DNA of 64,000 bases from Rufibacter sp. DG15C. GTDB lineage: Bacteria; Bacteroidota; Bacteroidia; Cytophagales; Hymenobacteraceae. The notes beneath the pieces were generated by a model. The model did not search any database, had not been told where the DNA came from, and saw only the letters and a list, made by a program, of their open reading frames with translations. This document shows positions 1,403 to 60,134 of the stretch, one piece after another; the first letter of the stretch is position 1; each line of letters opens with the position of its first letter. The translations under genes and the position numbers were made by a program. The stretch is from the NCBI RefSeq assembly GCF_001577755.1, contig NZ_CP010776.1, forward strand, positions 2,604,001 through 2,668,000, given 5' to 3'.

Positions 1403-1718
1403 AGGTAAATTCCTTTATATAGATAATTCTTGTTTTCAAACTATTGGTCTCTGCTGCCTGCCAGGCAACGTCTCCCTCCCAAACTACATGATGATGTTCT
1501 GCTTGTCTATAAACTGGTTACAGCATCTGGCATCTGGGAAGGTAAGACAATCCGGGCCATAAACGGCCATTCCGAAGGCCCTAATTAACAAATATAATAA
1601 CTTAATCCGAATAGGTGGGCACTCTTTTGCTAGTTATCCACATACTGGTTTTGGCTTGTTTTGGAGGAATCAGGCTAAAAATGAGGGTGTTTTGGGAGAG
1701 AACTAGCTAGTTTTTTGA
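1403..1718. other. Intergenic region upstream of the RicT-like gene
   Basis: No convincing gene. It holds the 38-bp palindrome at 1646-1683. On the minus strand there is a TATATTTG at 1596-1589 that matches the Bacteroidota -7 element, but no TTTG lies at the right distance, so it is only a weak promoter candidate for the RicT-like gene. A short GGGCC/GGCCC inverted repeat lies near 1556-1585. Confidence 0.4.
1646..1683. repeat. 38-bp palindromic repeat, copy 1 (degenerate)
   Basis: Left arm TGGTTTTGGCTT, right arm AGGCTAAAAATG; the loop has lost the CCAG core (TTGGAGGAA). Lies 35 bp beyond the methyltransferase stop. Confidence 0.7.
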
Positions 1719-2345
1719 TTAGGCTTTCTTGAAAAACAGGGCTAAGATTCTAGGGGTGGTGCTTCTGTCATCACCGTCAAAATATTCTTGCATGCTTTCC
1801 AGGGCTAACCCATTTTGTTGGGCCGCCTGTATGAAGTCACAGACATGGTGGGTGAAGCAAGTGAGTTCTACACGGCCATTAGGCGTGTCAAATCTAGCCT
1901 TGGTACCAGCGTATTGTTTGAACGGGTGTAGTTCGCCCACATAGACATAGCCGTTGGAGGGCAACACTTGGGCTGCTTTTTGAAAGATGGGTTCTAGCTG
2001 TTCAATATGCTCCAGCACCAAGCTGAAGGTCACCAAATCATATAGGCCATTTGCAAATTGCCAAGCTTGGGTGATGTCTGCCTGCCGGAATTCAACGATA
2101 GGGGAGGTTACCTTTTGCTTGGCTTTGGCGAGCATGTTCTCAGAGAAATCTACGGCCGTGACCTGTTGTGCGCGCGTGGCTAACCAAGTAGTGTTCTTGC
2201 CCGTGCCGCAGCCAATTTCCAGGCACCTTTCAAAGTGAAGACTGTCCGCCATTTCCTGCAACGCCCGCTCTTCTAGATCTCTGGTTCTGTTTTTATTGGT
2301 GTCATACTGGGTAGACCAGAGGTTGTAGGCTTGTTGGATATCCAT
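1719..2345 (-). CDS. Class I SAM-dependent methyltransferase
   Basis: A 208-residue protein with the Rossmann methyltransferase signature. Motif I is LEIGCGTGKNT (residues 42-52), the acidic end of beta-2 is D66 in VDFSEN, motif II-like AD-ITQ is at 89-93, and SLVLEHI (108-114) fits motif III. The fold transfers methyl from S-adenosylmethionine. The C-terminal half (GELHPFKQYAGTKARF and an H-H-V-x-D stretch) resembles Methyltransf_11/25 small-molecule enzymes, but the substrate cannot be read from sequence. It stands alone on the minus strand, with no operon partner within 110 bp, and no signal peptide is present. Confidence 0.85.
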   Translation of the reverse strand: MDIQQAYNLWSTQYDTNKNRTRDLEERALQEMADSLHFERCLEIGCGTGKNTTWLATRAQQVTAVDFSENMLAKAKQKVTSPIVEFRQADITQAWQFANGLYDLVTFSLVLEHIEQLEPIFQKAAQVLPSNGYVYVGELHPFKQYAGTKARFDTPNGRVELTCFTHHVCDFIQAAQQNGLALESMQEYFDGDDRSTTPRILALFFKKA

Positions 2346-2455
2346 GGAAGAATATGGTGGCTAAGAAGGTCTTGGTTTGATCCTAACGTCTTGGCTAAAC
2401 GATGGGCAAGACCGTCGTCCGAGCCTTGCGTTTAGCTGTTGTTGTGGGCCGTTTT

Positions 2456-2896
2456 TTAATTTTCCATTATCATTGTATTGATAACCTTCCATTTTCCATT
2501 ATCCCTCTGAAATCTGAAGTTAATCAATAGCCCTTCTATTGGGTATTCTATTTGAAGCCTAAGATTCTTGCCACCATAAGTCCAATCACCAATGCTCAAA
2601 TAATTTTTAATATTCTCTTTTTCTATAGTTTCTTCGTTTACTATTCTAATCTGCTGTCCGAATTTTTTAAATCCTTCAAAACTGTCTGCCGTTATAAGGC
2701 CAAATTCTTGCAAGGTCAAGATTGTTCTTGTCGTATCAGCCCTTCTGTGTAAATATTGTTGCAGTTCTGGCAAATCAACAGCAAGGCGTATTATTTCTTT
2801 TATTTCATTGATAGGCATTGCCTCACGCTTTTGCGCTATAGCACTCCAAGGCAGAATTAAAAGTCCAAGGGATAATATAATTGATTTAATTTTCAT
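2456..2896 (-). CDS. Small secreted protein of unknown function
   Basis: Start taken at the ATG at 2896 rather than five codons upstream, because it begins a clean signal peptide: MKIKS, a hydrophobic run of about 12 residues, and an AIAQ cleavage site typical of Bacteroidota. The mature part is about 125 residues, mixed charge, with no Cys and no recognised motif. It ends in a beta-rich stretch (LLINFRFQRDNGKWKVINTM) that looks like the last strands of a small alpha+beta domain. I do not recognise the family. Base composition is more AT-rich than the neighbours, so recent acquisition is possible. Confidence 0.65.
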   Translation of the reverse strand: MKIKSIILSLGLLILPWSAIAQKREAMPINEIKEIIRLAVDLPELQQYLHRRADTTRTILTLQEFGLITADSFEGFKKFGQQIRIVNEETIEKENIKNYLSIGDWTYGGKNLRLQIEYPIEGLLINFRFQRDNGKWKVINTMIMEN

Positions 2897-3048
2897 TTTA
2901 TAAATGCCCACAACTACTGTATAAACGTGAACATACGCTTATCTGCCCTATAGGAGAAGACAAGCATACGGTTTACTACCATTATTGACAAATAATCGTA
3001 ACTGGACTGGCTAATGCACTTTATGATAATACATTGAAATAGAGTCTA

Positions 3049-3086
3049 TGTTTTTAGCCTCATTTCCAGAAAACAAGTCAAAAACG
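3049..3086. repeat. 38-bp palindromic repeat, copy 2
   Basis: Left arm variant TTTTTAGCCT, loop CATTTCCAGAAAAC. Sits 1 bp beyond the response-regulator stop codon. Confidence 0.85.
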
Positions 3087-3087
3087 A

Positions 3088-3870
3088 TTACTTGCCCAGC
3101 CATTCCTTGAACGCATGGGCGCGCTCGCTGCTAATAATGATTTCCTTGTCGGTGGTGGGGCGCACGTAGACTTTGAGGCGGCCTTTCATGTAAGGATGGA
3201 TCTCATCTATGGCGTGAATATGCGAAATGAACTGGCGGTTGAGGCGGTTGAAATATTCGGGGTTGAGGATTTCCTGGAGCGTGTCCAGGGTGAAGTCCGT
3301 TATGAAGCGCTGGCCGGCGTTAGTGACCAGAAAGACAATCTTGTCCTCGGCGTAGAAATAGGCAATCTCTTCAATGGATACGGAGCGTATCTTCTGGCCG
3401 CTCTTTACCAAGAAACGGTTTTTGTAGACAGGCGTGGCTTCGGCTTTGCCGCGGTTGAGCATAGCCATGACGGTTTCCATGTCCAGGACCGGGGCCGCCG
3501 GTTGCTCCATCTGGCGGCGAAGGGACTTGAACTTGTCCATCGCTGCGCCTAGGTCCTCATTGCTAATGGGCTTGAGCAGGTAGTCAATACTGTTGACCTT
3601 GAACGCCTTGACGGCATACTCATCATAGGCCGTGGTGAAGATGATGGGGCACTTCACTTCTACCTTCTGGAAAATCTCAAAGCTGTTCCCATCAGAGAGG
3701 TGAATGTCCAGGAACGCCAAGTCTGGGGCCGGGTTGGTCTCAAACCATTTCACGGCGTTTCTAATAGAGTCAATGGTGCCCACAATCTGGATGGTTGGGT
3801 CATAGCGCAAGAGTTGCGCCTCCAGTTTTTCTACGGCCAGGTACTCGTCTTCAATGATGAGAATGTTCAT
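3088..3870 (-). CDS. LytTR-family response regulator
   Basis: 260 residues. Receiver domain at about 1-120 with the acidic pair E7/D8, phospho-acceptor D55 in LAFLDIHLSDG, a conserved T in FTTAYDEYAV and K in DYLLKPI. A LytTR DNA-binding domain follows at about 150-255 (VKSGQKIRSVSIEEIAYFYAED and FNRLNRQFISHI). Known: such regulators bind DNA through LytTR after phosphorylation by LytS-type kinases. Its start codon overlaps the kinase stop by one base (TAATG), so the two are translationally coupled and form one two-component system. Target genes are not evident here. Confidence 0.93.
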   Translation of the reverse strand: MNILIIEDEYLAVEKLEAQLLRYDPTIQIVGTIDSIRNAVKWFETNPAPDLAFLDIHLSDGNSFEIFQKVEVKCPIIFTTAYDEYAVKAFKVNSIDYLLKPISNEDLGAAMDKFKSLRRQMEQPAAPVLDMETVMAMLNRGKAEATPVYKNRFLVKSGQKIRSVSIEEIAYFYAEDKIVFLVTNAGQRFITDFTLDTLQEILNPEYFNRLNRQFISHIHAIDEIHPYMKGRLKVYVRPTTDKEIIISSERAHAFKEWLGK

Positions 3871-4986: not shown

Positions 4987-5024
4987 CATTTTTGGTCTGC
5001 TTTACAGGAAATAGGCCAAAAACA
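4987..5024. repeat. 38-bp palindromic repeat, copy 3
   Basis: Left arm CATTTTTGGTCT, loop GCTTTACAGGAAAT, right arm AGGCCAAAAACA. 17 bp beyond the stop of the outer-membrane protein gene. Confidence 0.8.
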
Positions 5025-6188: not shown

Positions 6189-6226
6189 CGTTTTTGGCCT
6201 GTTTTCTGAAAATCAGCCCGAAAACG
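6189..6226. repeat. 38-bp palindromic repeat, copy 4
   Basis: Between two convergent genes, ending 2 bp short of the propeller-gene stop. Loop GTTTTCTGAAAATC is itself nearly symmetric; right arm AGCCCGAAAACG. Confidence 0.85.
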
Positions 6227-8450: not shown

Positions 8451-8490
8451 GAGAAAATTCTAAAATGTAGCCGTTTGGGCCAGAGTAATA

Positions 8491-11084: not shown

Positions 11085-11849
11085 ATGTCTTTGCAAAATC
11101 TTTCGCTGAATACCCTGTTTGTAGGGCAACTACTGCTGTTTTTGCCTGAATGCGCCTCTACCAATACCGTGGCACAGGAGCTAATTAACAAAAATGGCGC
11201 CACAGACGGTTGTGTCATCATTGCGGGCGCCCAAACCGGCGGGCGCGGCCAACGTGGCAATACCTGGGACGTGGAACCTGACAAAAACATCACCTTGTCC
11301 TTGGTGCTCAAGCCCACCTTCCTGGAGGCAAACCAACAATTCAGTCTCAATATTGCCGTTTCTTTGGCGGCTTTGGACCTGCTTAAATCCCATCTGCCCG
11401 AAGGCGCCAGGATCAAGTGGCCCAATGATCTTTACTACCAAGACTTAAAGGTAGGGGGTATCTTGATAGAAAACGCCATAAGTGGCAGATTCTTGCAACA
11501 CACCGTCATTGGCATTGGCATAAACATCAACCAAGTCACCTTTCAACATGAGCGCGCCGCTTCGTTTGCTCTGCTGGCCGGCAAGGAATTCTCACTGTCC
11601 GGCATGGTCACCAAACTATTAGAGAACCTGGAACGACGGTACCTGGCTTTGCGCGCCGGTGCCCATGACCAACAAAAACAGGAGTACCTACAACAGCTGT
11701 ACCGTTACCAGGAATGGCATCCTTTTGAAATTGAGGGCCAGCGGGTGATGGGTCAGATAGCCGGGGTAGACGCGGTAGGAAGGCTGGCCGTCATTGTAGA
11801 ACAGAAATTGCAGTTCTTCCAGTTCCAAGAGATCAAGTACGTTTTCTGA
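11085..11849 (+). CDS. birA: Biotin--[acetyl-CoA-carboxylase] ligase
   Basis: 254 residues, catalytic and C-terminal domains only; there is no N-terminal helix-turn-helix, so this is a class I ligase that should not act as a biotin repressor. Motifs: ECASTNTVAQEL (22-33), the biotinyl-AMP loop TGGRGQRGNTW (51-61), IKWPNDLYY and KVGGILIE. The C-terminal SH3-like domain is at about 205-250. Function: it activates biotin with ATP and attaches it to the carboxyl-carrier lysine of acetyl-CoA carboxylase. The ATG TCT TTG start itself resembles a -7 element, so the true start could lie a few codons further in. Confidence 0.93.
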   Translation: MSLQNLSLNTLFVGQLLLFLPECASTNTVAQELINKNGATDGCVIIAGAQTGGRGQRGNTWDVEPDKNITLSLVLKPTFLEANQQFSLNIAVSLAALDLLKSHLPEGARIKWPNDLYYQDLKVGGILIENAISGRFLQHTVIGIGININQVTFQHERAASFALLAGKEFSLSGMVTKLLENLERRYLALRAGAHDQQKQEYLQQLYRYQEWHPFEIEGQRVMGQIAGVDAVGRLAVIVEQKLQFFQFQEIKYVF

Positions 11850-11853: not shown

Positions 11854-11891
11854 CGTTTTTGGCCTGATTTCTGGAAAACAGGCCAAAAACA
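11854..11891. repeat. 38-bp palindromic repeat, copy 5 (reverse orientation)
   Basis: Loop GATTTCTGGAAAAC, the reverse complement of the usual loop. Perfect 12-bp arms except the last base. Starts 4 bp after the birA stop codon. Confidence 0.9.
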
Positions 11892-15728: not shown

Positions 15729-15749
15729 ATTAAACTTTATAGTAATTAA

Positions 15750-15786
15750 AAGAGGCTAGCCGGAAACGGTTGGCCTCTTTGTTTTT
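15750..15786 (+). terminator. Intrinsic terminator after the DUF2723 gene
   Basis: Stem AAGAGGC(T)AGCC / GGTTGGCCTCTT around GGAAAC, followed by TGTTTTT. Confidence 0.8.
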
Positions 15787-15793: not shown

Positions 15794-15831
15794 CGTTTTT
15801 GCCATGTTTTCTGGAAATGAGGCCAAAAATG
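15794..15831. repeat. 38-bp palindromic repeat, copy 6 (reverse orientation)
   Basis: Left arm CGTTTTTGCCAT (mutated), loop GTTTTCTGGAAATG, right arm AGGCCAAAAATG. Eight bases after the DUF2723 terminator. Confidence 0.85.
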
Positions 15832-16815: not shown

Positions 16816-16864
16816 AAAAACGGCACGGCCCGACATTGTTGAAATGTCGGGCCGTGCCGTTTTT
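16816..16864. terminator. Bidirectional terminator between rlmB and manC
   Basis: A near-perfect 22-bp stem AAAAACGGCACGGCCCGACA / TGTCGGGCCGTGCCGTTTTT. A-tract and T-tract on both sides serve the two convergent genes. Its final CGTTTTT is also the left arm of the next repeat copy. Confidence 0.93.
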
Positions 16865-16895
16865 GACCTGTTTTCCAGGATATGGCCTAAAAATG
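16858..16895. repeat. 38-bp palindromic repeat, copy 7 (fused to terminator)
   Basis: Left arm CGTTTTTGACCT overlaps the terminator T-tract by 7 bp. Right end is 2 bp from the manC stop. Confidence 0.85.
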
Positions 16896-21271: not shown

Positions 21272-21309
21272 CGTTTTTGGGCTGTTTTCCAAGAAGTAGG
21301 CCAAAAACG
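21272..21309. repeat. 38-bp palindromic repeat, copy 8
   Basis: Left arm CGTTTTTGGGCT, loop GTTTTCCAAGAAGT, right arm AGGCCAAAAACG. 21 bp past the recQ terminator. Confidence 0.88.
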
Positions 21310-21369: not shown

Positions 21370-22674
21370 ATGAATGTCCTCATCATCGGCTCTGGCGGCC
21401 GCGAGCACGCCCTCGCCTGGAAATTGCAGCAAAGCCCTTACTGTGACAAAATCTACGTAGCGCCCGGGAACGCCGGCACGGCTCAGATTGCCACCAACGT
21501 AGACATCTCCACCATGGATTTTGAGGAACTGGCCAAATTCGCTACGGACTTTAACATCATGATGGTAGTAGTGGGCCCCGAGGATCCTTTAGTGGCGGGC
21601 ATCTCTGACTATTTCGCGGAGCGGGAATACCTCCAGAACATTCTGGTAGTAGGCCCTTGCAAGGCGGGTGCGCAGCTAGAGGGCAGCAAGGACTTCTCCA
21701 AGCAGTTCCTTCTCAAATACAATATCCCCACAGCGCAATACCAGACCTTCACGGCTGACACTCTTGACCAAGGCTTAATGTACCTGCAACAGCAGTCATT
21801 TCCTATTGTCTTAAAAGCAGATGGATTGGCTGCCGGAAAAGGAGTGGTCATTGCCAAGGATTTTGAGGAAGCCAGTTTCACGCTCAAAGGCATGCTTTTG
21901 CACAGCAAATTTGGCAGCGCGGGCAACAAGGTGGTGATTGAGGAGTTCCTGCAGGGCATTGAAATGTCGGCGTTCATACTAACGGATGGCAAAGAATATG
22001 TCATGCTGCCAGAGGCCAAGGATTACAAACGCATTGGCGAGGAAGACACTGGCCTGAACACCGGCGGCATGGGCGCTGTCTCCCCGGTACCGTTTGCCAA
22101 CGAGGCCTTTATGGCCAAGGTGCGCGAACGCGTCATTGAGCCTACGTTAAGGGGCTTACAAGAAGAGAACATCCCATACTCAGGGTTCTTGTTCATTGGG
22201 TTGATGAGCGTGAATGGAGAGCCTTACGTGATTGAATACAATGTGCGTCTGGGGGACCCCGAGACCGAAGCCATTTTGCCCCGCATCCAGTCAGATTTGT
22301 TTGAGCTGTTCAAAGCCCTGCATGACCATGAGTTGGGACAGTTCAACCTGCAGATAGACCCGCGGTCGGCCACTACCATCTTCCTGGTTTCAGGCGGTTA
22401 TCCTGAGGACTACGAGAAGGGTAAAGAAATCCATGGTCTGGAGAAAGAGGTGCCACAGGACGTGTATTGCTTTCATGGCGGCACCAAGAAGAACGGACAA
22501 GGTCAGGTAGTGACGGACGGCGGACGCGTCATGGCCATCACCGCCTTGGGCAACAACATGGAAGAAGCGCTCAAAAAAGCCAACCTGACAGCCACGCACA
22601 TCAAATGGCCGGGCCGCTATTTCAGGCAAGACATAGGTTTTGACCTGCGCAAATATGTAGCCGAGCGATTATAG
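21370..22674 (+). CDS. purD: Phosphoribosylamine--glycine ligase
   Basis: 434 residues. N-domain opens with MNVLIIGSGGREHALAWKL, followed by APGNAGTA and VVGPEDPLVAGI, all family signatures. The ATP-grasp domain holds VLKADGLAAGKGVVIA and GLNTGGMGAVSP. The metal-binding end is FNVRLGDPETE-like (EYNVRLGDPETEAILPR). Function: second step of purine synthesis, making glycinamide ribonucleotide with ATP. No other pur gene is adjacent. The last codons and stop (CGA TTA TAG) lie inside a degenerate copy of the 38-bp repeat. Confidence 0.96.
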   Translation: MNVLIIGSGGREHALAWKLQQSPYCDKIYVAPGNAGTAQIATNVDISTMDFEELAKFATDFNIMMVVVGPEDPLVAGISDYFAEREYLQNILVVGPCKAGAQLEGSKDFSKQFLLKYNIPTAQYQTFTADTLDQGLMYLQQQSFPIVLKADGLAAGKGVVIAKDFEEASFTLKGMLLHSKFGSAGNKVVIEEFLQGIEMSAFILTDGKEYVMLPEAKDYKRIGEEDTGLNTGGMGAVSPVPFANEAFMAKVRERVIEPTLRGLQEENIPYSGFLFIGLMSVNGEPYVIEYNVRLGDPETEAILPRIQSDLFELFKALHDHELGQFNLQIDPRSATTIFLVSGGYPEDYEKGKEIHGLEKEVPQDVYCFHGGTKKNGQGQVVTDGGRVMAITALGNNMEEALKKANLTATHIKWPGRYFRQDIGFDLRKYVAERL

Positions 22675-22703
22675 CCTGTTTTCTGGGAATTGAAGCAAAA
22701 TGA
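22666..22703. repeat. 38-bp palindromic repeat, copy 9 (overlaps purD stop)
   Basis: Left arm CGATTATAGCCT is degenerate but aligns over the full 38 bp; loop GTTTTCTGGGAATT; right arm GAAGCAAAATGA. The TAG stop of purD is formed by the arm. Confidence 0.6.
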
Positions 22704-24094: not shown

Positions 24095-24203
24095 GGTAGT
24101 TGTTGTTGGTTATTTGTTTATTCGAACTAGAAAATACGGATTCTTTCAAAAGTGAGCGGTGGTACTCCGCAGTGCCTAGTCTCTACAGAATCCGCGCATT
24201 CAG

Positions 24204-24230
24204 TCCCCCTTTGAAGGGGGTAGGGGGATG
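24204..24230. repeat. CCCCCTT-TG-AAGGGGG hairpin repeat
   Basis: CCCCCTTTGAAGGGGG forms a short hairpin and is followed by TAGGGGGATG. This motif type occurs as an interspersed repeat in many bacterial genomes (recall, not checked). Only one copy in this window. Confidence 0.55.
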
Positions 24231-24264
24231 ATTATGCATACAGATGGTTTATTTCCAATACAAA

Positions 24265-24300
24265 CCCCCTCATCCTAACCTTCTCCCTCAGGGAGAAGGG
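24265..24300. repeat. CCTTCTCCC-TCA-GGGAGAAGG hairpin repeat
   Basis: Prefix CCCCCTCATCCTAA followed by a perfect hairpin with stem CCTTCTCCC/GGGAGAAGG and loop TCA. A widespread interspersed bacterial repeat type; one copy here. Confidence 0.6.
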
Positions 24301-24312
24301 ACTGTGCTGATG

Positions 24313-24350
24313 CGTTTTTAGCCTGATTTCCAGAAAATAGGCCAAAACAG
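24313..24350. repeat. 38-bp palindromic repeat, copy 10
   Basis: Left arm CGTTTTTAGCCT, loop GATTTCCAGAAAAT, right arm AGGCCAAAACAG. Its right end runs into the following terminator stem. Confidence 0.88.
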
Positions 24351-25466: not shown

Positions 25467-25504
25467 CGTTTTTGACCTGGTTTCCAGAAAACAAGCTAAA
25501 AACG
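25467..25504. repeat. 38-bp palindromic repeat, copy 11
   Basis: Left arm CGTTTTTGACCT, loop GGTTTCCAGAAAAC, right arm AAGCTAAAAACG. Between the terminators of the convergent rpsT and pyk genes. Confidence 0.88.
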
Positions 25505-27947: not shown

Positions 27948-29201
27948 ATGGAGCTTAAGAGAGTTGTAGTTACAGGCCTTGGTGCGCTTACCCCCGTGGG
28001 GAATTCCGTTTCAGAGTATTGGGACGGCCTAATCAACGGAGTAAGTGGCGCAGCGCCCATCACCCGCTTTGACGCCTCTAAGTTTAAGACTCGGTTTGCG
28101 TGCGAAGTTAAGGGATATGATCCTGAGCAATATTTTGACCGTAAAGAGGCCCGCAAAATGGACCTCTTTACGCAATTTGCTATGGTTGTGGCCGATCAGG
28201 CCGTGAAGGACTCAGGCATTGATTCTGAAGCACTGGACAAAGACCGCATTGGTGTTATCTGGGGCTCTGGGATTGGTGGTCTACGTACTTTCCAAGAAGA
28301 GTGTGTGAACTTCGCCAATGGTGACGGTACGCCACGCTTCAACCCGTTCTTCATCCCTAAGATGATTGCTGACATCAGCGCCGGGTCCATTTCTATCAAA
28401 TACGGCTTCCGGGGACCTAACTTTGTGACGGTGTCTGCCTGTGCCTCTGCGTCTAACGCTATTATTGACTCTTTCAACTACATTAGGTTGGGGATGATAG
28501 ACGTAGTGGTGACTGGTGGTTCTGAGGCAGCGGTGACAGAGGCAGGCGTTGGAGGCTTTAATGCTTTGAAAGCCCTTTCAGAGCGCAATGACTCTCCAGA
28601 GTCAGCATCTCGTCCGTTTGACAAAGACCGTGACGGTTTTGTGTTGGGCGAAGGCGCGGGTGCCATCATCCTGGAAGAGTACGAGCATGCCAAGGCGCGC
28701 GGTGCTAAAATCTACGCCGAGATCATTGGCGGAGGCATGTCAGCAGATGCGTACCACATTACCGCTCCGCACCCAGAAGGTTTGGGCGCGCGCAACGTAA
28801 TGAAGAACGCCTTGAAAGACGCTGGCATCAAGCCAGAGGAAGTAGACTACATCAACGTGCACGGCACTTCTACTCCGCTGGGAGATGTAAGTGAGGCCAT
28901 GGCCATTGAGTACGTGTTCGGGGAGCATGCTTATAACCTCAACATTAGCTCTACCAAGTCCATGACGGGTCACTTGCTGGGTGCGGCCGGTGCTATTGAA
29001 GCCATCGCATGTATTCTGGCTATCCAAAACGGCGCAGTTCCTCCTACCATCAACCACTCAACGGATGATGAGCAATTTAACTCCAAGCTTAACTTTACCT
29101 TTAACAAGGCACAGGAGCGCGAGGTGAATATTGCACTGAGCAACACGTTCGGGTTTGGGGGGCACAACACGTCTGTGATATTCCGCAAATTTGTTGACTA
29201 G
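27948..29201 (+). CDS. fabF: 3-oxoacyl-[acyl-carrier-protein] synthase II
   Basis: 417 residues. The catalytic triad of condensing enzymes is visible: C165 in TVSACASASNAI, the first His in VHGTSTPLGD (about 305) and the second in KSMTGHLLGAAGAIE (about 342). RRVVVTGLGALTPVGN at the N-terminus and NTFGFGGHN near the end complete the FabF signature. It elongates acyl-ACP with malonyl-ACP. Its stop TAG shares the G with the GTG start of rnc, so the two are coupled. Confidence 0.97.
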   Translation: MELKRVVVTGLGALTPVGNSVSEYWDGLINGVSGAAPITRFDASKFKTRFACEVKGYDPEQYFDRKEARKMDLFTQFAMVVADQAVKDSGIDSEALDKDRIGVIWGSGIGGLRTFQEECVNFANGDGTPRFNPFFIPKMIADISAGSISIKYGFRGPNFVTVSACASASNAIIDSFNYIRLGMIDVVVTGGSEAAVTEAGVGGFNALKALSERNDSPESASRPFDKDRDGFVLGEGAGAIILEEYEHAKARGAKIYAEIIGGGMSADAYHITAPHPEGLGARNVMKNALKDAGIKPEEVDYINVHGTSTPLGDVSEAMAIEYVFGEHAYNLNISSTKSMTGHLLGAAGAIEAIACILAIQNGAVPPTINHSTDDEQFNSKLNFTFNKAQEREVNIALSNTFGFGGHNTSVIFRKFVD

Positions 29202-32794: not shown

Positions 32795-32832
32795 TGTTTT
32801 TGGCCTGCTTTCCAAGAAATAGCCTAAAAACT
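32795..32832. repeat. 38-bp palindromic repeat, copy 14 (fused to terminator)
   Basis: Left arm TGTTTTTGGCCT, loop GCTTTCCAAGAAAT, right arm AGCCTAAAAACT. Five bases after the HD gene stop; its AAAAACT is the start of the terminator stem. Confidence 0.87.
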
Positions 32833-35423: not shown

Positions 35424-35510
35424 AAAAACGGTTAAAGTGATACTGGGATTGAATAAGGTATAGGCAGATTGAATAAACCCATTGGCAAGCATGAGGGTAG
35501 GGAGCAGAAG

Positions 35511-35548
35511 CGTTTTTGGGCTATTTCTCAGGAATCAGGCTAAAAACA
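35511..35548. repeat. 38-bp palindromic repeat, copy 15
   Basis: Left arm CGTTTTTGGGCT, loop ATTTCTCAGGAATC, right arm AGGCTAAAAACA. 26 bp past the stop of the CarboxypepD_reg gene. Confidence 0.85.
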
Positions 35549-36623: not shown

Positions 36624-36660
36624 CATTTTTAGCCTGATTTCCAGAATGAGGCCAAAAACA
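36624..36660. repeat. 38-bp palindromic repeat, copy 16 (37 bp)
   Basis: Left arm CATTTTTAGCCT, loop GATTTCCAGAATG (one base short), right arm AGGCCAAAAACA. Lies between two hairpins and shares its A-tract with the second. Confidence 0.87.
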
Positions 36661-36697
36661 AAGAACGCCGACAGGTATCTGCCGGCGTTCTTTTTAT
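36656..36697 (-). terminator. Terminator of the paralog B barrel gene
   Basis: Stem AAAGAACGCCG / CGGCGTTCTTT; on the minus strand the stem runs into TGTTTTT, which is the right arm of repeat copy 16. Confidence 0.88.
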
Positions 36698-39304: not shown

Positions 39305-39616
39305 AGAAGAAGTGAAAACGATAATTTTTATTTCAAGCGGGCAAGGGGCAGAATTGCGCTGTTCCACCACCTATACTTGCTTTGGTTGAAGCATTAGTAG
39401 GCAAGGCCATAGGATTATTACAGCGGCTGGCAGAGAAAAACAGATTTTAACAAAACCTTAACCTTTGGCTTGGAAAGGCAGATTCTGAAAGATGGGTTTA
39501 AATTGTTTAAAGCGGTTTTTGACCTGTTTTCCAGAAATGAGGGCAAAAACAAAAGCCTCACACAAATGGAGCGGTAAGGCTACACTTGCATGAGGCTTCC
39601 TGTAATTTGAGGATGG
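39305..39616. other. Intergenic region upstream of paralog B
   Basis: No gene. It must hold the minus-strand promoter of the barrel gene, but no good TTTG/TAnnTTTG pair was found. It contains repeat copy 17 and, beside the ferredoxin stop, a hairpin with arms AAGCCTCA (39555-39562) and TGAGGCTT (39591-39598) that probably ends the ferredoxin transcript. Confidence 0.45.
39514..39551. repeat. 38-bp palindromic repeat, copy 17
   Basis: Left arm GGTTTTTGACCT, loop GTTTTCCAGAAATG, right arm AGGGCAAAAACA. Next to the hairpin that follows the ferredoxin gene. Confidence 0.87.
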
Positions 39617-41160: not shown

Positions 41161-41988
41161 ATGCTGGATTTTATCACCTGGGACGTGTCCCCAGACCTTT
41201 TCTCACTTGGGCCTTTGACGGTGCGCTGGTACGGCCTGCTGTTTGCCATGGCCTTTGTCTTGACGCAACCCATTGAGAAGTACATCTACAAAACAGACGG
41301 CCGCAAAGAAGAGGATGTGGACGTACTCACTTTATATATGGTCATTGGTACCGTGATTGGCGCGCGCCTGGGCCACTGCCTGTTCTATGACCCGGTGTAC
41401 TACTTGTCTAACCCGCTGGAGATTTTCAAAATCTGGGAAGGCGGTCTGGCCAGCCACGGCGGTACCATAGGCATTTTGACGGCGCTGTACCTGTTCAGCC
41501 GGAAGTACAAGTTTGACTACCTGTGGGTCTTGGACCGTATTGTGATTGTGGTGGCCGTGGGCGGTGCCTGTATTCGTCTGGGCAACCTCATGAACTCAGA
41601 AATCATCGGCAAACCGACCGACTTGCCATGGGCCTTTAAGTTTGTGCGCAACAATGAGCTCTTCAATGGTGTGCCAGCCTACGTTGACCCACGCCATCCA
41701 ACGCAGTTGTATGAAAGCCTTTTCTGCGTGTTCCTGTTTATTTTGCTTTACACCATGTGGAAGAAAGGCGCCGGCAAAGTGCGCGGACTGCTGTTCGGGC
41801 TGTTTGTGACGTTGTTGTTCACCTTCCGTTTCCTGGTTGAGTTCCTGAAGGAAAACCAGGAAGCCTTTGAAGATGAGCTGACCTTGAACATGGGCCAGTG
41901 GCTGAGCATCCCGTTGATTCTGATTGGCATTGTGGTGCTTATCTACGCCCTGCGCCAACCCAGACCACCGCAACAAATGGTTAGCTAG
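41161..41988 (+). CDS. lgt: Prolipoprotein diacylglyceryl transferase
   Basis: 275 residues, about seven membrane helices. Family signatures: VRWYGLLFAMAFVL near the start, GTVIGARLGHCLFYDP, the catalytic-loop GGLASHGGTIGI with its essential His, and GACIRLGNLMNSEIIG (Arg-Gly-Asn). PRHPTQLYES is also present. Function: moves diacylglycerol from phosphatidylglycerol to the lipobox Cys of prolipoproteins at the inner membrane; clients here could include the MsrB lipoprotein. Stand-alone gene with a strong terminator. Confidence 0.97.
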   Translation: MLDFITWDVSPDLFSLGPLTVRWYGLLFAMAFVLTQPIEKYIYKTDGRKEEDVDVLTLYMVIGTVIGARLGHCLFYDPVYYLSNPLEIFKIWEGGLASHGGTIGILTALYLFSRKYKFDYLWVLDRIVIVVAVGGACIRLGNLMNSEIIGKPTDLPWAFKFVRNNELFNGVPAYVDPRHPTQLYESLFCVFLFILLYTMWKKGAGKVRGLLFGLFVTLLFTFRFLVEFLKENQEAFEDELTLNMGQWLSIPLILIGIVVLIYALRQPRPPQQMVS

Positions 41989-41989: not shown

Positions 41990-42027
41990 CGTTTTTGGCG
42001 TGATTTCCAGAAAATAGCCTAAAAACA
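41990..42027. repeat. 38-bp palindromic repeat, copy 18 (fused to terminator)
   Basis: Left arm CGTTTTTGGCGT, loop GATTTCCAGAAAAT, right arm AGCCTAAAAACA. One base after the lgt stop. Confidence 0.88.
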
Positions 42028-42925: not shown

Positions 42926-43095
42926 TGGTCAAATAAAGGTTAAGAAGTACGCTAAAAACCTGAAAGCAGGAATTATTGTAAACGAAGCCCACTCCTAGAA
43001 GTTAACAGAAATTTAACCTTAAGAAGGTGCTACGGCTGGCTGGAGAGGTTCTGAGCAGAATCCAGATAAAAAGGTTGACTAGATATAAACCACCT

Positions 43096-43133
43096 CGTTT
43101 TTGGCCTGTTTTCCAGAAATCAGGCCAAAAACG
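43096..43133. repeat. 38-bp palindromic repeat, copy 19 (perfect, extended stem)
   Basis: Arms exactly CGTTTTTGGCCT(G) and (C)AGGCCAAAAACG, loop TTTTCCAGAAAT. The pairing extends outwards through ACCACCT/AGGTGGT to 43089-43140, a 20-bp perfect stem. 12 bp from the stop of the next gene. Confidence 0.95.
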
Positions 43134-43151
43134 AGGTGGTCACGCCGGCAA

Positions 43152-45423: not shown

Positions 45424-45461
45424 CGTTTTTGGCCTATTTTCTAGGAAATAAGCCTAAAATG
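45424..45461. repeat. 38-bp palindromic repeat, copy 20
   Basis: Left arm CGTTTTTGGCCT, loop ATTTTCTAGGAAAT, right arm AAGCCTAAAATG. 14 bp beyond the deaminase stop. Confidence 0.83.
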
Positions 45462-49067: not shown

Positions 49068-49105
49068 CGTTTTTGGCTTAGTTTCCAGAAAATACCCTAA
49101 AAACG
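49068..49105. repeat. 38-bp palindromic repeat, copy 21 (fused to terminator)
   Basis: Left arm CGTTTTTGGCTT, loop AGTTTCCAGAAAAT, right arm ACCCTAAAAACG. One base after the peptidase stop; AAAAACG opens the terminator stem. Confidence 0.87.
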
Positions 49106-50301: not shown

Positions 50302-52391
50302 AGCGTTTTTGGCTTGTTTTCCTGATTATAGCCTTAAAACGGCTTCCAGTGTGGGCACAAGAAATCCCCAGGCAGGCGGTAGATGTGGAGTTGTTGGTCC
50401 AAGAACTGTTCGCCCAGCAGAATGATGAAAACACTGTAACTTATGAGGATTTATATGAGACCCTACTCCAATATTACCGGCAGCCTTTAGACCTAAACCG
50501 CGCCAGCCGGGAAGAGCTGCGCGGACTGTGGCTCTTGTCAGAAAGTCAGATATCCAGTTTACTCCAACACATAGCAGAGAACGGCAGGCTGTTGAGCTTA
50601 TATGAATTGCAGGCCATTCCGGGGTTTGACCTACTCACTATTAGAAGATTATTGCCATTTGTAACGGTTCAAGGCCAAGGGCATACAGGGCAGAGGACAT
50701 GGCGGGAAAGAATTAAACAGGCCGATAATCATTCTCTGCTGCTGCGCTATGATAGAACCTTACAGGAACAAAGAGGCTATACTGCTCCCGAAGGCCGTTC
50801 CACTACCCGTTACTTGGGTTCACCAGATAAATACTTGCTTAGGTACAGACTCAGTCAAGCAAAAGACTTCAGTTTTGGCCTCACCGCCGAGAAAGATGCC
50901 GGGGAGCAGTTTTCCTGGAGCCCTAGCCAACGCCTGTATGGGTTTGATTTCTACTCCTTCCACGCGCAGTTGTATGACAGAGGCCAGTTCAAAACCATAG
51001 CGGTCGGCGATTATCAATTGCAGTTTGGGCAGGGTCTGTTGCTTTCGAGTGGTTTGGGGGTAGGGAAGGGCTCAGAAACCATTACCACCGTGAGACGCAG
51101 TCAGGTGGGCATTCGGCCGCATACCTCGGCCATGGAAACTAATTTCTTCAGAGGAATGGCTGCCACCCACCGTTGGCGAAGACTGGAAAGCACCCTCTTT
51201 TACTCTAATAGAAAAGTGGACGCCTCTGTGTCTGAAACAGCGCAGAACGAAGAGGAGTTAATCGAAGAAATTGGCAGACTGGGCAGTATCCAGACCTCGG
51301 GCCTGTACCGCACGCCCACTGAGTTTACCAACCGCAACAGAGCCAGGGAGCAGGTGATGGGCGGCGATGTCACCTATAGAAATCTCGCGCAAACCTTAAG
51401 CATTGGTTTGACCGCCCTGACTACCCGCTACAACCTGTCCTTGCAGAAGAGGCCGGAGCCCTACAACTTGTTTACTTTTAGCGGAAGGCAGAACAGCGGG
51501 GTAGGCCTGCACTACAGCTACCTTTGGCAGAATTTCAACTTCTTCGGAGAAACAGCTAGGTCAGAAAATGGCGGATTAGGCACAGTAAATGGGATATTGG
51601 CCAGCTTGTCTGAACGCGTGGAGATGGCCTTCGTGTACCGCCATTATGCCAGGGATTTCCAGAGTCTCTATGGCAATGCCTTCGGCGAAAGCACGCGCAA
51701 CCAGAACGAGGACGGCTTTTACTCCGGCCTTAAACTGAAGTTGAGCAACCGTTGGCAGCTCACCGCCTTTTATGACCGGTTCCGGTTTCCTTGGCTACGC
51801 TACAGGGTAGAAGCGCCCTCAGATGGTGACGAGTATTTGCTGCGACTGCAGTTTGTGCCCTCCAAAACCACCCTGCTCTATGCCCAGTTTCAACAGGAAC
51901 GCAAAGCCCGCAACGAAACTGCGGAAGGAAATGCTTTGGCCCAGGTCACTGAAACGCAATCGCAGCGGCTGTTGCTCTTGCTGGATGTGAGCCCCTTGCC
52001 TTCGCTCAGGCTGAGGTCACGGGTACAGATGAGTCAGTTTCAGCAATCTGGAGAAAAGCAAAAAGGCTATCTGATGGCGCAAGACGTGACCTGGGACCGG
52101 AATAGTACTCGGCTAAGCGCCCGCTATTCCCTCTTTGACACAGACGGCTACGACGCCCGGCAATATGCCCCCGAGCAGGATGTGCTCTATGCCTTTTCTA
52201 TTCCAGTATTCACGGGCACCGGCACACACGTCTACCTATTGGCCCAGCACCAACTCAACCAGCACCTGGATGTCTGGGCCAAACTCAGCCTCACCCAATA
52301 TAGGAACCAATATACGGTGAGCTCAGGCTTGGAGGAGATTCAAGGACCCAGAAGAACCGATGTTAGGGTGCAGGTGCGGTATCGTTTTTAG
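50298..52391 (+). CDS. Outer-membrane protein with N-terminal helix-hairpin-helix domain
   Basis: 697 residues from the ATG at 50298, chosen because it overlaps the upstream stop as ATGA; an ATG five codons earlier is less likely. Signal peptide at 1-21 ending VWAQ, most of it encoded by a 38-bp repeat copy. A ComEA-like helix-hairpin-helix region is at about 55-125 (QPLDLNRASREELRGLWLL, LLSLYELQAIPGFDLLTIRRLLPFV). The rest is a large barrel (KDFSFGLTAEKDAG, YQLQFGQGLLLSSGLGVGKG) ending VRVQVRYRF with the C-terminal Phe beta-signal. Known: such HHH-barrel proteins occur across Bacteroidota with no proven role. DNA or peptidoglycan binding by the HHH part is conjecture. Confidence 0.85.
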   Translation: MKRFWLVFLIIALKRLPVWAQEIPRQAVDVELLVQELFAQQNDENTVTYEDLYETLLQYYRQPLDLNRASREELRGLWLLSESQISSLLQHIAENGRLLSLYELQAIPGFDLLTIRRLLPFVTVQGQGHTGQRTWRERIKQADNHSLLLRYDRTLQEQRGYTAPEGRSTTRYLGSPDKYLLRYRLSQAKDFSFGLTAEKDAGEQFSWSPSQRLYGFDFYSFHAQLYDRGQFKTIAVGDYQLQFGQGLLLSSGLGVGKGSETITTVRRSQVGIRPHTSAMETNFFRGMAATHRWRRLESTLFYSNRKVDASVSETAQNEEELIEEIGRLGSIQTSGLYRTPTEFTNRNRAREQVMGGDVTYRNLAQTLSIGLTALTTRYNLSLQKRPEPYNLFTFSGRQNSGVGLHYSYLWQNFNFFGETARSENGGLGTVNGILASLSERVEMAFVYRHYARDFQSLYGNAFGESTRNQNEDGFYSGLKLKLSNRWQLTAFYDRFRFPWLRYRVEAPSDGDEYLLRLQFVPSKTTLLYAQFQQERKARNETAEGNALAQVTETQSQRLLLLLDVSPLPSLRLRSRVQMSQFQQSGEKQKGYLMAQDVTWDRNSTRLSARYSLFDTDGYDARQYAPEQDVLYAFSIPVFTGTGTHVYLLAQHQLNQHLDVWAKLSLTQYRNQYTVSSGLEEIQGPRRTDVRVQVRYRF
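50304..50341. repeat. 38-bp palindromic repeat, copy 22 (inside coding sequence)
   Basis: Left arm CGTTTTTGGCTT, loop GTTTTCCTGATTAT, right arm AGCCTTAAAACG. Covers codons 3-15 of the helix-hairpin-helix protein and encodes the hydrophobic core of its signal peptide. Confidence 0.85.
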
Positions 52392-52420
52392 GCTGTTTTG
52401 GGGAAATGAGGCCAAAAACG
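52383..52420. repeat. 38-bp palindromic repeat, copy 23 (supplies stop codon)
   Basis: Left arm CGTTTTTAGGCT: its first nine bases are the final Arg, Phe and TAG codons of the upstream gene. Loop GTTTTGGGGAAATG, right arm AGGCCAAAAACG. Confidence 0.85.
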
Positions 52421-55770: not shown

Positions 55771-55808
55771 CATTTTTGGCTTATTTCCTGGGAAACAGGC
55801 CAAAAACG
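55771..55808. repeat. 38-bp palindromic repeat, copy 24 (divergent intergenic)
   Basis: Left arm CATTTTTGGCTT, loop ATTTCCTGGGAAAC, right arm AGGCCAAAAACG. The only copy between divergent genes, 8 bp before the GTG used as start for the next gene. Confidence 0.87.
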
Positions 55809-58212: not shown

Positions 58213-58260
58213 ACCTTCCAGATATCCTTTGACTTTACAGTTGCCCTTAAGGTTTACTTG

Positions 58261-60060
58261 ATGTATCCAATTCTTCTAATAGGCGTTGTCCTTTCCATTT
58301 TTTTCTTTTTGCTGGGTTCTTTGTTCATAGACCGTCAGCTGAAAGGGTCTTCTGGGTTTTTACAGAATGTTATTAATCTTTGGGTTGGGATCCTTTTAGC
58401 TGTTTCAGTTTATGCAATCGTGAAAACTGCCATGATTACCATCATGGTTTTGCTGTTGCTGGTGATTGTTCTATTTAGGAAGAGATTCAGTCTGGAGAAA
58501 GCTCAAAACCCCATTGGGAAATTACGTTTTGGGGTAGTATTGGCAGGCGTTTATGTTCTGGTTTTCTTCGTCCAGGTCAACTTTCAACTGGACGTGTTTG
58601 ATCATCCCTTAAATTACCTGAAACATATTCATGCAGACGACGGGGAGCGCTACATCTACAGCCACATTGTTAGTCTACTGTATTATGAGGAGGTAGAAAC
58701 GGTAAGTGTAGAAGGGGTGCTCAAAGGTTTTACTGGTGTTTCACTTTACCATTTCGCGGAATTCTGGTTGGCAAGCCTCTTTAAGTCAATCTATAACGCC
58801 AAAAGTGACCTGATACTGTTTTATTTTGTATTCCCCTTATTGAAAACCCTGTGCGTGCTAACGGTCTACTCTATCTATGCCCACAGGCTGGATACCTATA
58901 AAAGAAAACTGCTTGGCGTTTTTATCGTCTTTGGTTTTGTGGTGCTGGGGTTGAAATGGATTTTCCCTCCGCATGCTGTCGCAGACCTGCGAGCCATCGT
59001 ATTACTGCCTTTTTTGATTCTGGTGGCTAAGTTGTTGTATGATAAAAAATATGATGCGGCTTGTGGGTTCTTGCTGATAGCCGGAATAGAGAATGTGTTA
59101 TTTCTGCCTGCGGCGGCCCTGTTTCTGCTTTTGTTTTTTGATAAGGTAGAAAAACGCACCTTTTATTTGTTTGGGGCCTATCTGGTAGCTTATCCCTTGT
59201 TCTTCTTCCTTTTCAAGGAAAAAGTGACGGATAAATATATGACCTTGAGCCTGCAAGAGACCTTTCAAACAATTATAAGTGACGCGCCGGCGAGAAGGGT
59301 GTACCGGATTTTCTTACTGGCATTATTGTCTTATCCTTTTAAGGTGCTGCTTTCCTTTATCCTTCTAAACAATTATTCCGCACTCATTAAAAAGGTCTGG
59401 TTGCGAGACCTAGGATACTGGCTATTGCTTTGTTTTGTAGTGTACCACGGGCTGTTTGGGATATTCCAAAGCCTTTCAGTAGACGCGTACCAGTTCAAGA
59501 GCGTGGGGCTAAACTTAGCTGGGGTGGCCTTCTTCTTTATTTTGGCTTATCTAATTGATAAGGGCAAGTTCCTGATTTGTTTAGTGATCATGCTCTTAGT
59601 CACTGACTATACCTATCCATTCTCAGAAGTTAAAACAAACAGAGCGTATGATCCTAATCTGGAGGATAAGTTAGCGAGAATAGGGGAAGGCAAAGTAATA
59701 AAGGGCCTTTTTGTAGACGAAAACGAAGTATTAGAAAGTCAATTTTTCTTATTCCTCTATCCAACGCATGTAACGGAATACGGCAGGGCCAATGACTACC
59801 GGATGTACCTCTTTACCTACGACGTTACAGGGTTAAGGAATTCATTGGATAAATTGGATACAGGACCACAAAAAATCGTCTCAAAGGTGATTCAACCTAT
59901 TTTCCCCATGGATAGGGGAATCTTGGAGAATATCAAGACCCACTCAATCTCACTGGTTTGGGTGAATAAAAATTCAAAGTACTTGAGTGAGTTTAAAGGC
60001 TACCAACCATTGCATGTGTTGGATAACTACTTTGTATATTCTATTCAAGTTGGAGATTAG
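58261..60060 (+). CDS. Large polytopic membrane protein of unknown function
   Basis: 599 residues from the ATG at 58261. About 12-13 hydrophobic segments fill the first 470 residues, and a soluble tail of about 130 residues follows (RIGEGKVIKGLFVDENEVLES, FLYPTHVTEYGRANDYRMYLF). An early periplasmic loop reads LKHIHADDGERYIYSHIVSLL, with an acidic pair that could be the active site of a GT-C-like enzyme. I do not recognise the family. A Wzy-type polymerase or lipid-linked-sugar transferase are options from context. AT-richer than the first half of the window. Confidence 0.6.
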   Translation: MYPILLIGVVLSIFFFLLGSLFIDRQLKGSSGFLQNVINLWVGILLAVSVYAIVKTAMITIMVLLLLVIVLFRKRFSLEKAQNPIGKLRFGVVLAGVYVLVFFVQVNFQLDVFDHPLNYLKHIHADDGERYIYSHIVSLLYYEEVETVSVEGVLKGFTGVSLYHFAEFWLASLFKSIYNAKSDLILFYFVFPLLKTLCVLTVYSIYAHRLDTYKRKLLGVFIVFGFVVLGLKWIFPPHAVADLRAIVLLPFLILVAKLLYDKKYDAACGFLLIAGIENVLFLPAAALFLLLFFDKVEKRTFYLFGAYLVAYPLFFFLFKEKVTDKYMTLSLQETFQTIISDAPARRVYRIFLLALLSYPFKVLLSFILLNNYSALIKKVWLRDLGYWLLLCFVVYHGLFGIFQSLSVDAYQFKSVGLNLAGVAFFFILAYLIDKGKFLICLVIMLLVTDYTYPFSEVKTNRAYDPNLEDKLARIGEGKVIKGLFVDENEVLESQFFLFLYPTHVTEYGRANDYRMYLFTYDVTGLRNSLDKLDTGPQKIVSKVIQPIFPMDRGILENIKTHSISLVWVNKNSKYLSEFKGYQPLHVLDNYFVYSIQVGD

Positions 60061-60096
60061 GTGGATCGCTAAGGGCTGGTTGAAGAGGATGTAGCC

Positions 60097-60134
60097 CTTT
60101 TTTGGCCTCATTTCCAGAAAACAAGCCAAAAGCG
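60097..60134. repeat. 38-bp palindromic repeat, copy 25
   Basis: Left arm CTTTTTTGGCCT, loop CATTTCCAGAAAAC, right arm AAGCCAAAAGCG. 36 bp after the stop of the membrane-protein gene. Confidence 0.85.

Follow-up and report, generated by a model that had tools for sequence, protein, structure and literature searches.

A 64,000-nt stretch of the Rufibacter sp. DG15C chromosome (NZ_CP010776.1, positions 2,604,001 to 2,668,000; hereafter the window, with site coordinates counted from its first position) contains many copies of one 38-bp palindrome. When short palindromic repeats occur at the ends of genes, they are usually classed as REP-type parasites or as RNA hairpins. Here, we ask whether either class accounts for this family, or whether its copies are better understood as sites for a protein.

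A 38-bp dyad is repeated along the sampled chromosome

Consensus and profile scans identified 24 full sites in the window and one decayed site (at 22666), in agreement with a preliminary description of this DNA that had counted 25 palindrome copies from 1646 to 60134. The sites are listed below without strand; window sites were aligned copy by copy to the nearest relative (G013), and fractions give the relatives that carry a site in the gap between the same gene pair.

1646-1683: first dyad site in the window; 40.9 bits; not aligned to the nearest relative
3049-3086: dyad site 1 bp past the stop of the minus-strand gene 3088-3870; 49.9 bits; counterpart in the nearest relative
4987-5024: dyad site; 44.2 bits; counterpart in the nearest relative; 3/3 relatives with the gene pair
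6189-6226: dyad site; 54.4 bits; counterpart in the nearest relative
11854-11891: dyad site 4 bp past the stop of 11085-11849; 59.3 bits; 4/4 relatives
15794-15831: dyad site directly after a terminator-like hairpin (15749-15780); 47.0 bits; 7/7 relatives
16858-16895: dyad site in a convergent gap, abutting a terminator-like hairpin (16817-16863); 39.2 bits; 3/3 relatives
21272-21309: dyad site after a recQ-like gene; 53.2 bits; 10/11 relatives, the gap of the eleventh being 22 bp
22666-22703: decayed dyad site, below the 14-bit cut and outside the 24; intact counterpart in the nearest relative; 10/11 relatives
24313-24350: dyad site in a convergent gap; 49.4 bits; 13/13 relatives
25467-25504: dyad site in a convergent gap by a pyruvate kinase gene; 53.3 bits; 10/14 relatives
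29960-29997: dyad site 6 bp past the stop of 29201-29953; 49.1 bits; 12/13 relatives
32066-32103: dyad site after an NAD synthase gene; 49.4 bits; 12/12 relatives
32795-32832: dyad site 5 bp past a stop in a convergent gap, followed by a terminator-like hairpin (by eye); 41.3 bits; 9/10 relatives
35511-35548: dyad site; 47.8 bits; 10/10 relatives
36624-36661: dyad site, one base shorter than its counterpart in the nearest relative; 17.2 bits; 7/7 relatives
39514-39551: dyad site; 43.1 bits; counterpart in the nearest relative
41990-42027: dyad site 1 bp past the stop of 41161-41988, followed by a terminator-like hairpin (by eye); 49.1 bits; 4/4 relatives
43096-43133: dyad site with the top score in the window; 62.5 bits; not aligned to the nearest relative, whose same gap has two sites
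45424-45461: dyad site; 50.2 bits; 2/2 relatives
49068-49105: dyad site 1 bp past the stop of an S46 peptidase gene, followed by a terminator-like hairpin (by eye); 47.0 bits; 4/4 relatives
50304-50341: weaker dyad site; 36.4 bits; counterpart in the nearest relative; 0/4 relatives, whose called gaps are shorter than zero
52383-52420: dyad site filling a 37-bp convergent gap and supplying a stop codon (CGT TTT TAG); 51.0 bits; 3/3 relatives
55771-55808: dyad site in a gap called divergent; 54.6 bits; not aligned to the nearest relative
60097-60134: last dyad site in the window; 48.3 bits; not aligned to the nearest relative

The excess extends beyond the window, contrary to the outcome that, according to that description, would have refuted the family. 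A 464-kb sample of the same genome, comprising the window and 20 stretches of 20 kb, holds 180 sites of at least 14 bits, compared with a mean of 0.2 over five Markov shuffles. Genome-wide, a strict pattern allowing up to two mismatches matches 898 times (reversed-pattern control, 1) and a dialect-neutral pattern 1,421 times (control, 0). Sampled 20-kb stretches carry 2-11 sites each, and all 21 sampled places are occupied, which rules out a set of sites limited to the origin or terminus region. One site-poor stretch (L020) was suspected of being a prophage, a suspicion rejected since it carries rpoC, an elongation factor G gene, and ribosomal-protein genes. The consensus contains 47.9 bits of information, whereas, by a hand estimate, about 11.5 bits would be needed for locating ~1,421 genomic sites; such an excess is not predicted by a simple binding-site model. 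The preliminary description knew of no named family with this consensus, and excerpts from a survey of REP elements likewise describe none (PMC3733652).

The element is two-fold symmetric and its arms are nearly independent

The apparent loop of the palindrome, GTTTTCCAGAAAAT, had been read as conserved and asymmetric. This reading was mistaken: the loop is itself symmetric (GTTTTCyrGAAAAC), and the whole element forms a single 38-bp dyad, with a weak one-base extension at either end (position -1 is C or T in 88%, from a symmetrised flank table). The window copy at 36624 is one base shorter than its counterpart in G013. Nearly invariant across copies are the T-tracts, of which each half has two, about one helical turn apart, at distances of about 14.5 and 4 bp from the dyad; the 5' arm carries the T-tract and the 3' arm the A-tract.

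Complementarity between the arms is close to chance (2,522 cells compared with about 2,533 expected; 19 pairs, 180 copies), and all 18 outer pairs are complementary in only 7/180 copies. G-U pairs show no excess over A-C (250 vs 284 in the same 180 copies). Because the arms are nearly independent and G-U does not exceed A-C, selection does not act on the element as a hairpin or as RNA. Sites from outside this genome show a small excess of complementarity when pooled (3,291 vs 3,246.9 expected, n = 285), as do two relatives taken singly: G006 (1,523 vs 1,488.5), mainly at pair 7 (z 3.0), and G008 (1,187 vs 1,130.0), mainly at pairs 7 (z 3.2) and 6 (z 2.7). The halves are without polarity (difference 0.89 +/- 0.85 bits, n = 102) and rarely occur singly. 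At 16 bits, 7 lone half-sites lie outside the sites (2 in shuffles), including the decayed site and one site cut by the end of a stretch; at 12 bits, there are 13 (1 in shuffles). Two-fold symmetry with independent half-sites thus characterizes the element in its own genome and nearly so in the relatives. An earlier suggestion that the repeat is an RNA or DNA signal kept by selection survives for a double-stranded DNA site and fails for an RNA or hairpin.

Sites are retained in place within a single genus

The dialect-neutral pattern occurs 769-2,256 times in each of the 16 genomes of the genus (Rufibacter group; controls 0-4), and in 14 of them the number exceeds one thousand. By contrast, all 43 genomes from outside the genus are at background, with 0-9 copies in 21 genomes from the family's other genera (controls 0-12) and 1-45 in 22 genomes of the order (controls 0-41). 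The scan of relatives that had been recommended extends the family across one genus. A de novo dyad search recovered the motif in 67/79 gene-end regions of seven Rufibacter/Sabulibacter loci (9 when shuffled); in Pontibacter, Hymenobacter, and Adhaeribacter, it returned motifs that were terminator-like or unclear.

Within the genus, a site lies at the same gene joint in 111/117 gap comparisons, and species differ in dialect, sharing the T-tracts and varying at other positions. Among the 13 of 24 copies that align to G013 without gaps, on which these change counts rest, 8/208 strong positions have changed, compared with 65/208 weak positions. The corresponding figures are 123/458 for flanking non-coding DNA and 6,041/16,562 for third codon positions. 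The T-tracts are under selection in place, while the other positions drift between species at the neutral rate.

Sites mark gene ends, about one per gap

Most sites are extragenic, in the gaps behind genes and 3' of them: 168/180 are intergenic, and the other 12 fall in called genes or at stretch ends. Convergent gaps of at least 100 bp in this genome contain zero, one, or two sites in 5, 31, and 3 cases, respectively (variance/mean 0.22), and none of the 73 co-directional gaps shorter than 40 bp has a site. The one-per-gap rule is less clear in relatives: in G006, 6/14 long convergent gaps carry two sites, in G008 10/23 convergent gaps of at least 100 bp are empty, and a few tight co-directional gaps are occupied (2/36 in G006, 2/39 in G008). 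Sites also hug stop codons. In convergent gaps, 19/39 have a stop no more than 10 bp away (8.1 expected), and in co-directional gaps, 29/92 lie within 15 bp (12.8 expected); the coding sequence of two sampled genes even runs 9 bp into the element, which supplies the stop codon. A site is present in 18/38 of the long gaps called divergent, although this is the least certain class, as genes were called with a hexamer-based caller whose starts are approximate. The genes rpoB and rpoC form one operon; a site separates them in 16/16 genomes of the genus. Both placements count against the binding-protein reading proposed below.

Alternative explanations for the repeat

Placement at gene ends, close to stops, and the occupation of one 37-bp convergent gap by a site alone would suit a roadblock or protein-dependent transcription terminator. 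In G006, intrinsic terminators are also rarer at convergent ends with a site (18/46) than at those without (10/16; sites not masked). In DG15C itself, however, they are as common with a site (46/69) as without (21/35), and likewise in G008 (17/27 and 12/25); intrinsic terminators are about as common in the sister genera Pontibacter (51/84) and Hymenobacter (50/76), again with sites not masked. Moreover, the halves lack polarity, the rpoB-rpoC gap keeps its site, and some sites lie in gaps called divergent. We consider a terminator of this kind rather unlikely.

Also unlikely is a mobile element of the REP or MITE kind that was dispersed by a Y1/RAYT or another transposase and is now in decay. 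REP/BIME elements, which include the GTAG and CGTC families, measure 20-40 bp and lie extragenically between convergent or co-directional genes, near stops, and E. coli REPs are reported to be bound by gyrase, IHF, and Pol I (PMC3733652, PMC1525189). The Rufibacter sites resemble them in being palindromic, extragenic, and close to stops at gene ends, and placement alone therefore cannot prove a function, because REPs are found there as well (PMC3733652). Y1 proteins occur in 15/16 genus genomes (1-6 each), the stop codons supplied by the element would be expected of an old insertion, and the information excess suggests copying in the past. The preliminary description had reported no flanking direct repeats, which is accurate for lengths of 3-9 bp, all at or near expectation among the 180 copies; repeats of 2 bp are slightly in excess (12 vs 7.5 expected, or 26 vs 17.0 with the element widened by one base). 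A MITE with target duplications was rejected on these counts, longer duplications being absent.

The proposal, in the preliminary description, of a REP-like element moved in trans by a RAYT-type enzyme likewise finds no support. No Y1 match was obtained in DG15C at E 0.001, even though this genome has one of the sharper consensus sequences, and the arms do not covary in this genome. In 20 stretches from relatives, holding 21 of the 45 Y1 matches listed, a hand count found a site on both sides in 8 (6.8 expected); the Y1/RAYT gene flanked by the same palindrome, suggested as a check, was thus not found in DG15C, and Y1 genes of the relatives show no clear enrichment of flanking sites. Unlike REP/BIME elements, the Rufibacter sites lack a one-sided unpaired tag of the GTAG or CGTC type and are symmetric to their tips, with nearly independent arms. 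They are also mostly single, without a clear RAYT association, and are kept by selection at the same joints genus-wide, where they change in place. CGTC repeats combine a CGTC tag, an 8-9 bp stem, a 4-5 nt loop, and a CCA-like tail (PMC3733652); the consensus does not show this combination.

It seems quite unlikely that the repeat is a signal for DNA uptake or self-recognition maintained through biased transformation. Known DNA uptake sequences (DUS) are short and are not long dyads, in contrast to the 38-bp Rufibacter site. Nearly all sites are intergenic, at about one per gap, and single halves are scarce; an uptake model gives no reason for the one-per-gap pattern or for the hugging of stop codons. 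Nevertheless, the number of copies, their species dialects, and their spread along the sampled chromosome recall the Neisseriaceae DUS, which reaches thousands of copies with species-specific variants (PMC3630211).

Finally, an RNA hairpin at mRNA 3' ends, serving as terminator or stabiliser, is very improbable and largely refuted: although the element is a palindrome at 3' ends and relatives show a small complementarity excess at pairs 6-7, it lacks the intrinsic-terminator form of a paired hairpin followed by a U-tract, its T-tract/A-tract order is the opposite of a terminator's, Rfam gave no match within the window, and the independence of the arms and the terminator counts both reject such a structure, even if the G006 counts point the opposite way.

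A putative binding protein at gene ends

Symmetric sites selected in place, with independent arms and fixed placement at gene ends, are the hallmarks of a protein-binding site with two-fold symmetry. We infer, with a probability of about 60%, that the repeats are binding sites of one DNA-binding protein of the Rufibacter group with an architectural or insulating role at gene ends. Such a protein would bind sequence-specifically, as a dimer or a pair of dimers, to a high-affinity, two-fold symmetric site of ~38-40 bp. Since the T-tracts of each half lie about one helical turn apart, it would probably contact a single face of the double helix at four points. The sites are old and stationary, held by purifying selection, their weaker positions having drifted into dialects, presumably alongside the protein. 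They mostly lie at the junction of two successive transcription units, where the bound protein may hold or bend the DNA between neighbouring units rather than terminate transcription.

More tentatively, the sites could form a boundary-element system, in which one dedicated protein would occupy roughly 800-2,250 fixed, high-information dyads in each genome. With about one such site following every transcription unit, the whole chromosome would be partitioned into insulated or anchored segments the size of a gene, and the protein would co-evolve with its sites into species dialects. We know of no bacterial system of such density and placement. What distinguishes these repeats is that double-stranded, symmetric sites selected in place number about a thousand or more per genome in 16 genomes of one genus and fall to background in 43 relatives. 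Should a dedicated protein prove to bind them, bacteria would have an equivalent of boundary or insulator proteins. The genus with sites and its sister genera without them would then offer a comparison for the effects of unit separation on supercoiling, chromosome folding, and expression, and the dialects provide very many parallel sites for following the co-evolution of a protein with its target.

Known chromosomal sites resemble the Rufibacter dyad in part. The matS/MatP and Noc sites are also palindromic and have a dedicated binding protein, which is putative in Rufibacter; they are about 13-16 bp long, regional, and present in tens of copies, unlike the ~1,400 or more 38-bp sites found along the whole sampled chromosome and tied to gene ends. 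ParB is present once per genus genome, so that a ParB/Noc paralog was rejected as the genus-specific binder. Long bent sites of the IHF/HU type are similar in length, at about 35 bp, and in the positions of their A/T tracts, which lie in the flanks and close to the dyad. Each genus genome, however, encodes one full-length HU/IHF member and no extra gene, as in the sister genera, and HU/IHF was rejected as a genus-specific binder on this ground. The aligned rows of the HU/IHF family, with those of several loci including that of DG15C left out, are near-identical inside and outside the genus.

A genus-wide family of dyad sites

A profile was trained on 464 kb of the 4,143,738-base Rufibacter sp. 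DG15C genome, made up of the window plus 20 other stretches of 20 kb each. In this sample it recovered 180 copies of the 38-bp site scoring at least 14 bits, 24 of them within the window; five Markov shuffles averaged 0.2. Scores are well separated, with 174 copies still passing 30 bits, and sites occur in all 21 sampled places (2-11 per 20-kb stretch, 24 in the 64-kb window). A 25th window copy, at 22666, is decayed. Extrapolation of the sampled 180 yields ~1,600 copies for the whole genome, where a strict pattern matches 898 and a dialect-neutral pattern 1,421. The repeat family that the preliminary description proposed from the window is thereby upheld, both in its excess over shuffled sequence and in its extension past the window.

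The closest named NAD synthases are those of Rufibacter and Sabulibacter (81-86%), which places the organism in the Rufibacter group. Using the dialect-neutral pattern, we found 769-2,256 copies in each of 16/16 genomes of the genus (controls 0-4), 0-9 matches in 21 genomes from other genera of the family (controls 0-12), and 1-45 in 22 genomes of the order (controls 0-41). A de novo dyad search in gene-end regions, at width 38 only, returned the motif in 67/79 regions from named Rufibacter and Sabulibacter loci (9 shuffled) and in 46/94 from the own genome (11 shuffled). The same search gave terminator-like hairpins rather than the motif in Pontibacter (30/208 regions versus 26 shuffled) and Hymenobacter (65/301 versus 25), and no clear motif in Adhaeribacter (12/42 versus 9).

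The weakly conserved positions are species-specific, reading for instance CGTTTTTGGCCTGTTTTC in the own genome, CGTTTTCGGGCTCATTTC in the relative G012 and CGTTTAGGGGCTGTTTTTC in R. immobilis. The closest parallel to these variants is the dialects of DNA uptake sequences (DUS), as outlined in one account (PMC3630211). Site information ranges from 23.5 bits (relative G008) to 50.3 (G012) in small samples of 13-37 sites; some lineages thus hold the motif more loosely. One 9.3-kb IMG/VR viral contig carries an exact strict match (L176, 6328-6361) and may be a misfiled host fragment.

The symmetry belongs to the DNA

The conserved asymmetric loop initially described is itself symmetric and part of a dyad spanning the whole element, so that the consensus is one half-sequence, YCGTTTTTrgcCTgtTTtCy, plus its own reverse complement. 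Conservation is very uneven: T4-T6, T12, T15 and T16 reach 96-100% and the remaining positions 43-91%, the strong tracts lying some 14.5 and 4 bp off the dyad. Across the 180 copies, the arms match no better than two randomly drawn half-sites (2,522 complementary cells versus about 2,533 expected, from a hand-summed table). G-U mismatches are not in excess (250 versus 284 A-C), and all 18 outer pairs are complementary in only 7/180 copies. The symmetry is thus that of the DNA and not of a hairpin.

In 13 other genome sets, 285 pooled sites gave 3,291 complementary cells versus 3,246.9 expected, with pair 7 at 113 versus 88.4. Larger samples from two relatives, which share some stretches with this pool, show a small excess: 1,523 versus 1,488.5 in G006 (114 sites) and 1,187 versus 1,130.0 in G008 (118 sites). 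It lies mainly at pair 7 (z 3.0 and 3.2, respectively), with further contributions from pair 6 in G008 (z 2.7) and pair 18 in G006 (z 2.2). Mixed site quality could account for this excess, or it may reflect genuine coupling of the arms.

Lone halves are scarce outside sites (7 versus 2 in shuffles at 16 bits, 13 versus 1 at 12 bits, 26 versus 13 at 10 bits). CA or TG occupies the middle step of 89/180 own-genome copies versus 53.5 expected, a preference not found in G006. The copy at 43096 sits inside an outer inverted repeat, accacct...aggtggt (43085-43145).

Sites lie between genes, mostly one per gap

With 408 genes called by a home-made gene caller in the own-genome sample, 168/180 sites are intergenic; the other 12 lie inside called genes or at the ends of stretches. 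Occupancy depends on gap type and length as follows.

Gaps with a site in the own-genome sample
Convergent, at least 100 bp: 34/39
Convergent, 40-99 bp: 8/13
Convergent, shorter: 1/4
Co-directional, <40 bp: 0/73
Co-directional, 40-99 bp: 12/54
Co-directional, 100-199 bp: 39/78
Co-directional, at least 200 bp: 48/70
Divergent, at least 200 bp: 18/38
Divergent, shorter: 1/18

A single site per gap seems enough in this genome, because the number per gap scatters below Poisson (variance/mean 0.22 for convergent, 0.39 and 0.51 for co-directional, and 0.62 for divergent gaps). Sites also hug stop codons, beginning 1-7 bp past the stop in 40 gene-site pairs. At 22674 and 52391, two genes draw their last codons and stop from the site itself (CGT TTT TAG, or a decayed form). 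Among relatives, 106/114 sites in G006 and 92/118 in G008 are intergenic; they occupy 22/24 and 13/23 convergent gaps of at least 100 bp and 2/36 and 2/39 tight co-directional gaps, respectively. Two-site gaps are commoner in both than in the own genome.

Sites are kept in place

The nearest relative, G013, has an NAD synthase 95% identical to that of the own genome. Nineteen of the 24 window copies align with G013 over all 38 columns, 6 of them with gaps, and 5 do not align fully. Among the 13 copies aligned without gaps, changes affected 8/208 strong positions (3-7, 12, 15, 16 and their mirror images) and 65/208 weak ones; the outer two pairs changed in 9/52 and the middle pair in 11/26. Flanking non-coding bases changed in 123/458, third codon positions in 6,041/16,562 and second in 665/16,572. 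Thus, weak positions drift at about the neutral rate, and strong positions change as slowly as second codon positions.

Comparison with 14 relatives, at identical gene pairs with gaps of at least 45 bp, revealed a site in the relative in 111/117 cases where the own genome has one and in 18/77 where it has none, 10 of these 18 being the joint that holds the decayed copy at 22666. In the 71 further comparisons with shorter gaps, which were left out, the relative has a site in 7. The sites are therefore kept in place. The gap at 8451-8490 is 36-40 bp long and holds a site in relatives, and is 39-40 bp long and siteless in the own genome and G013; the site was thus lost or gained without change in length.

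Relation to transcription termination

Intrinsic terminators were counted as a hairpin plus T-tract, with sites left unmasked. In the own genome they occur at 46/69 convergent ends with a site and 21/35 without, and at 31/92 and 28/104 co-directional ends, respectively. Convergent ends in G008 give 17/27 and 12/25, and those of sister genera 51/84 (Pontibacter), 50/76 (Hymenobacter) and 11/24 (Adhaeribacter). G006 is an exception, with terminators rarer at site-bearing ends (18/46 versus 10/16). Since terminators are mainly as common with a site as without, the sites in the main came on top of the usual termination machinery.

The site-poorest stretch, L020, has two sites and carries rpoC, an elongation factor G and ribosomal-protein genes, which generally form long operons. 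One of the two lies directly before rpoC, behind a gene that is presumably rpoB, and is kept in 16/16 genus genomes (117-119 bp upstream, 24.6-39.8 bits). Its position counts against a hard terminator and makes placement at transcription-unit ends no more than a tendency. In the rpoC regions of the genus (L217-L232), at about 40-120 bp upstream of rpoC, the site shares bases with an outer inverted repeat (GGAGATTTC...GAAATCTCC and variant forms), so one dyad arm may double as part of an RNA hairpin.

The half facing the upstream gene does not differ from the other (0.89 +/- 0.85 bits). We propose that a predicted genus-specific DNA-binding protein reads the sites and would most likely shape chromosome architecture or insulate genes from one another. 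No extra genus-specific member of either HU/IHF or ParB was found.

Relation to known repeat systems

Movement by a RAYT-type enzyme, as originally suggested, is not supported. The own genome has no Y1_Tnp match at E 0.001, and 15/16 genus genomes have at least one. In 20 stretches covering 21 of the 45 listed matches, a site lay within 600 bp on both sides in 8/20 (hand count) versus 6.8 expected after weighting by species; among ordinary genes similar in size, 32/95 were so flanked. One published survey describes GTAG repeats as often close to RAYTs and CGTC repeats as not, both carrying end tags, and REPs as likewise near gene ends (PMC3733652). REPs are also described as bound by gyrase, IHF and Pol I and as frequent between convergent genes (PMC1525189). 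By analogy, the dyad sites may do similar work, but they fail the REP tests of end tag, arm pairing and associated transposase.

Other repeats in the window

A different, G/C-rich repeat at about 24200-24310 (CCCCCTTTGAAGGGGGTAGGGGGATG and CCCCCTCATCCTAACCTTCTCCCTCAGGGAGAAGG, strings found 2-3 times in the 464 kb sampled) is closer in look to the usual REP than the dyad sites are; a similar repeat occurs in G012 at another joint. Two further genes share repeat blocks that lie about 3.8-3.9 kb apart and are 70-85% alike:

32886-35492, minus strand, ORF of 868 aa
36716-39370, minus strand, ORF of 884 aa

Given these shared blocks, the two ORFs look like a tandem duplicate.
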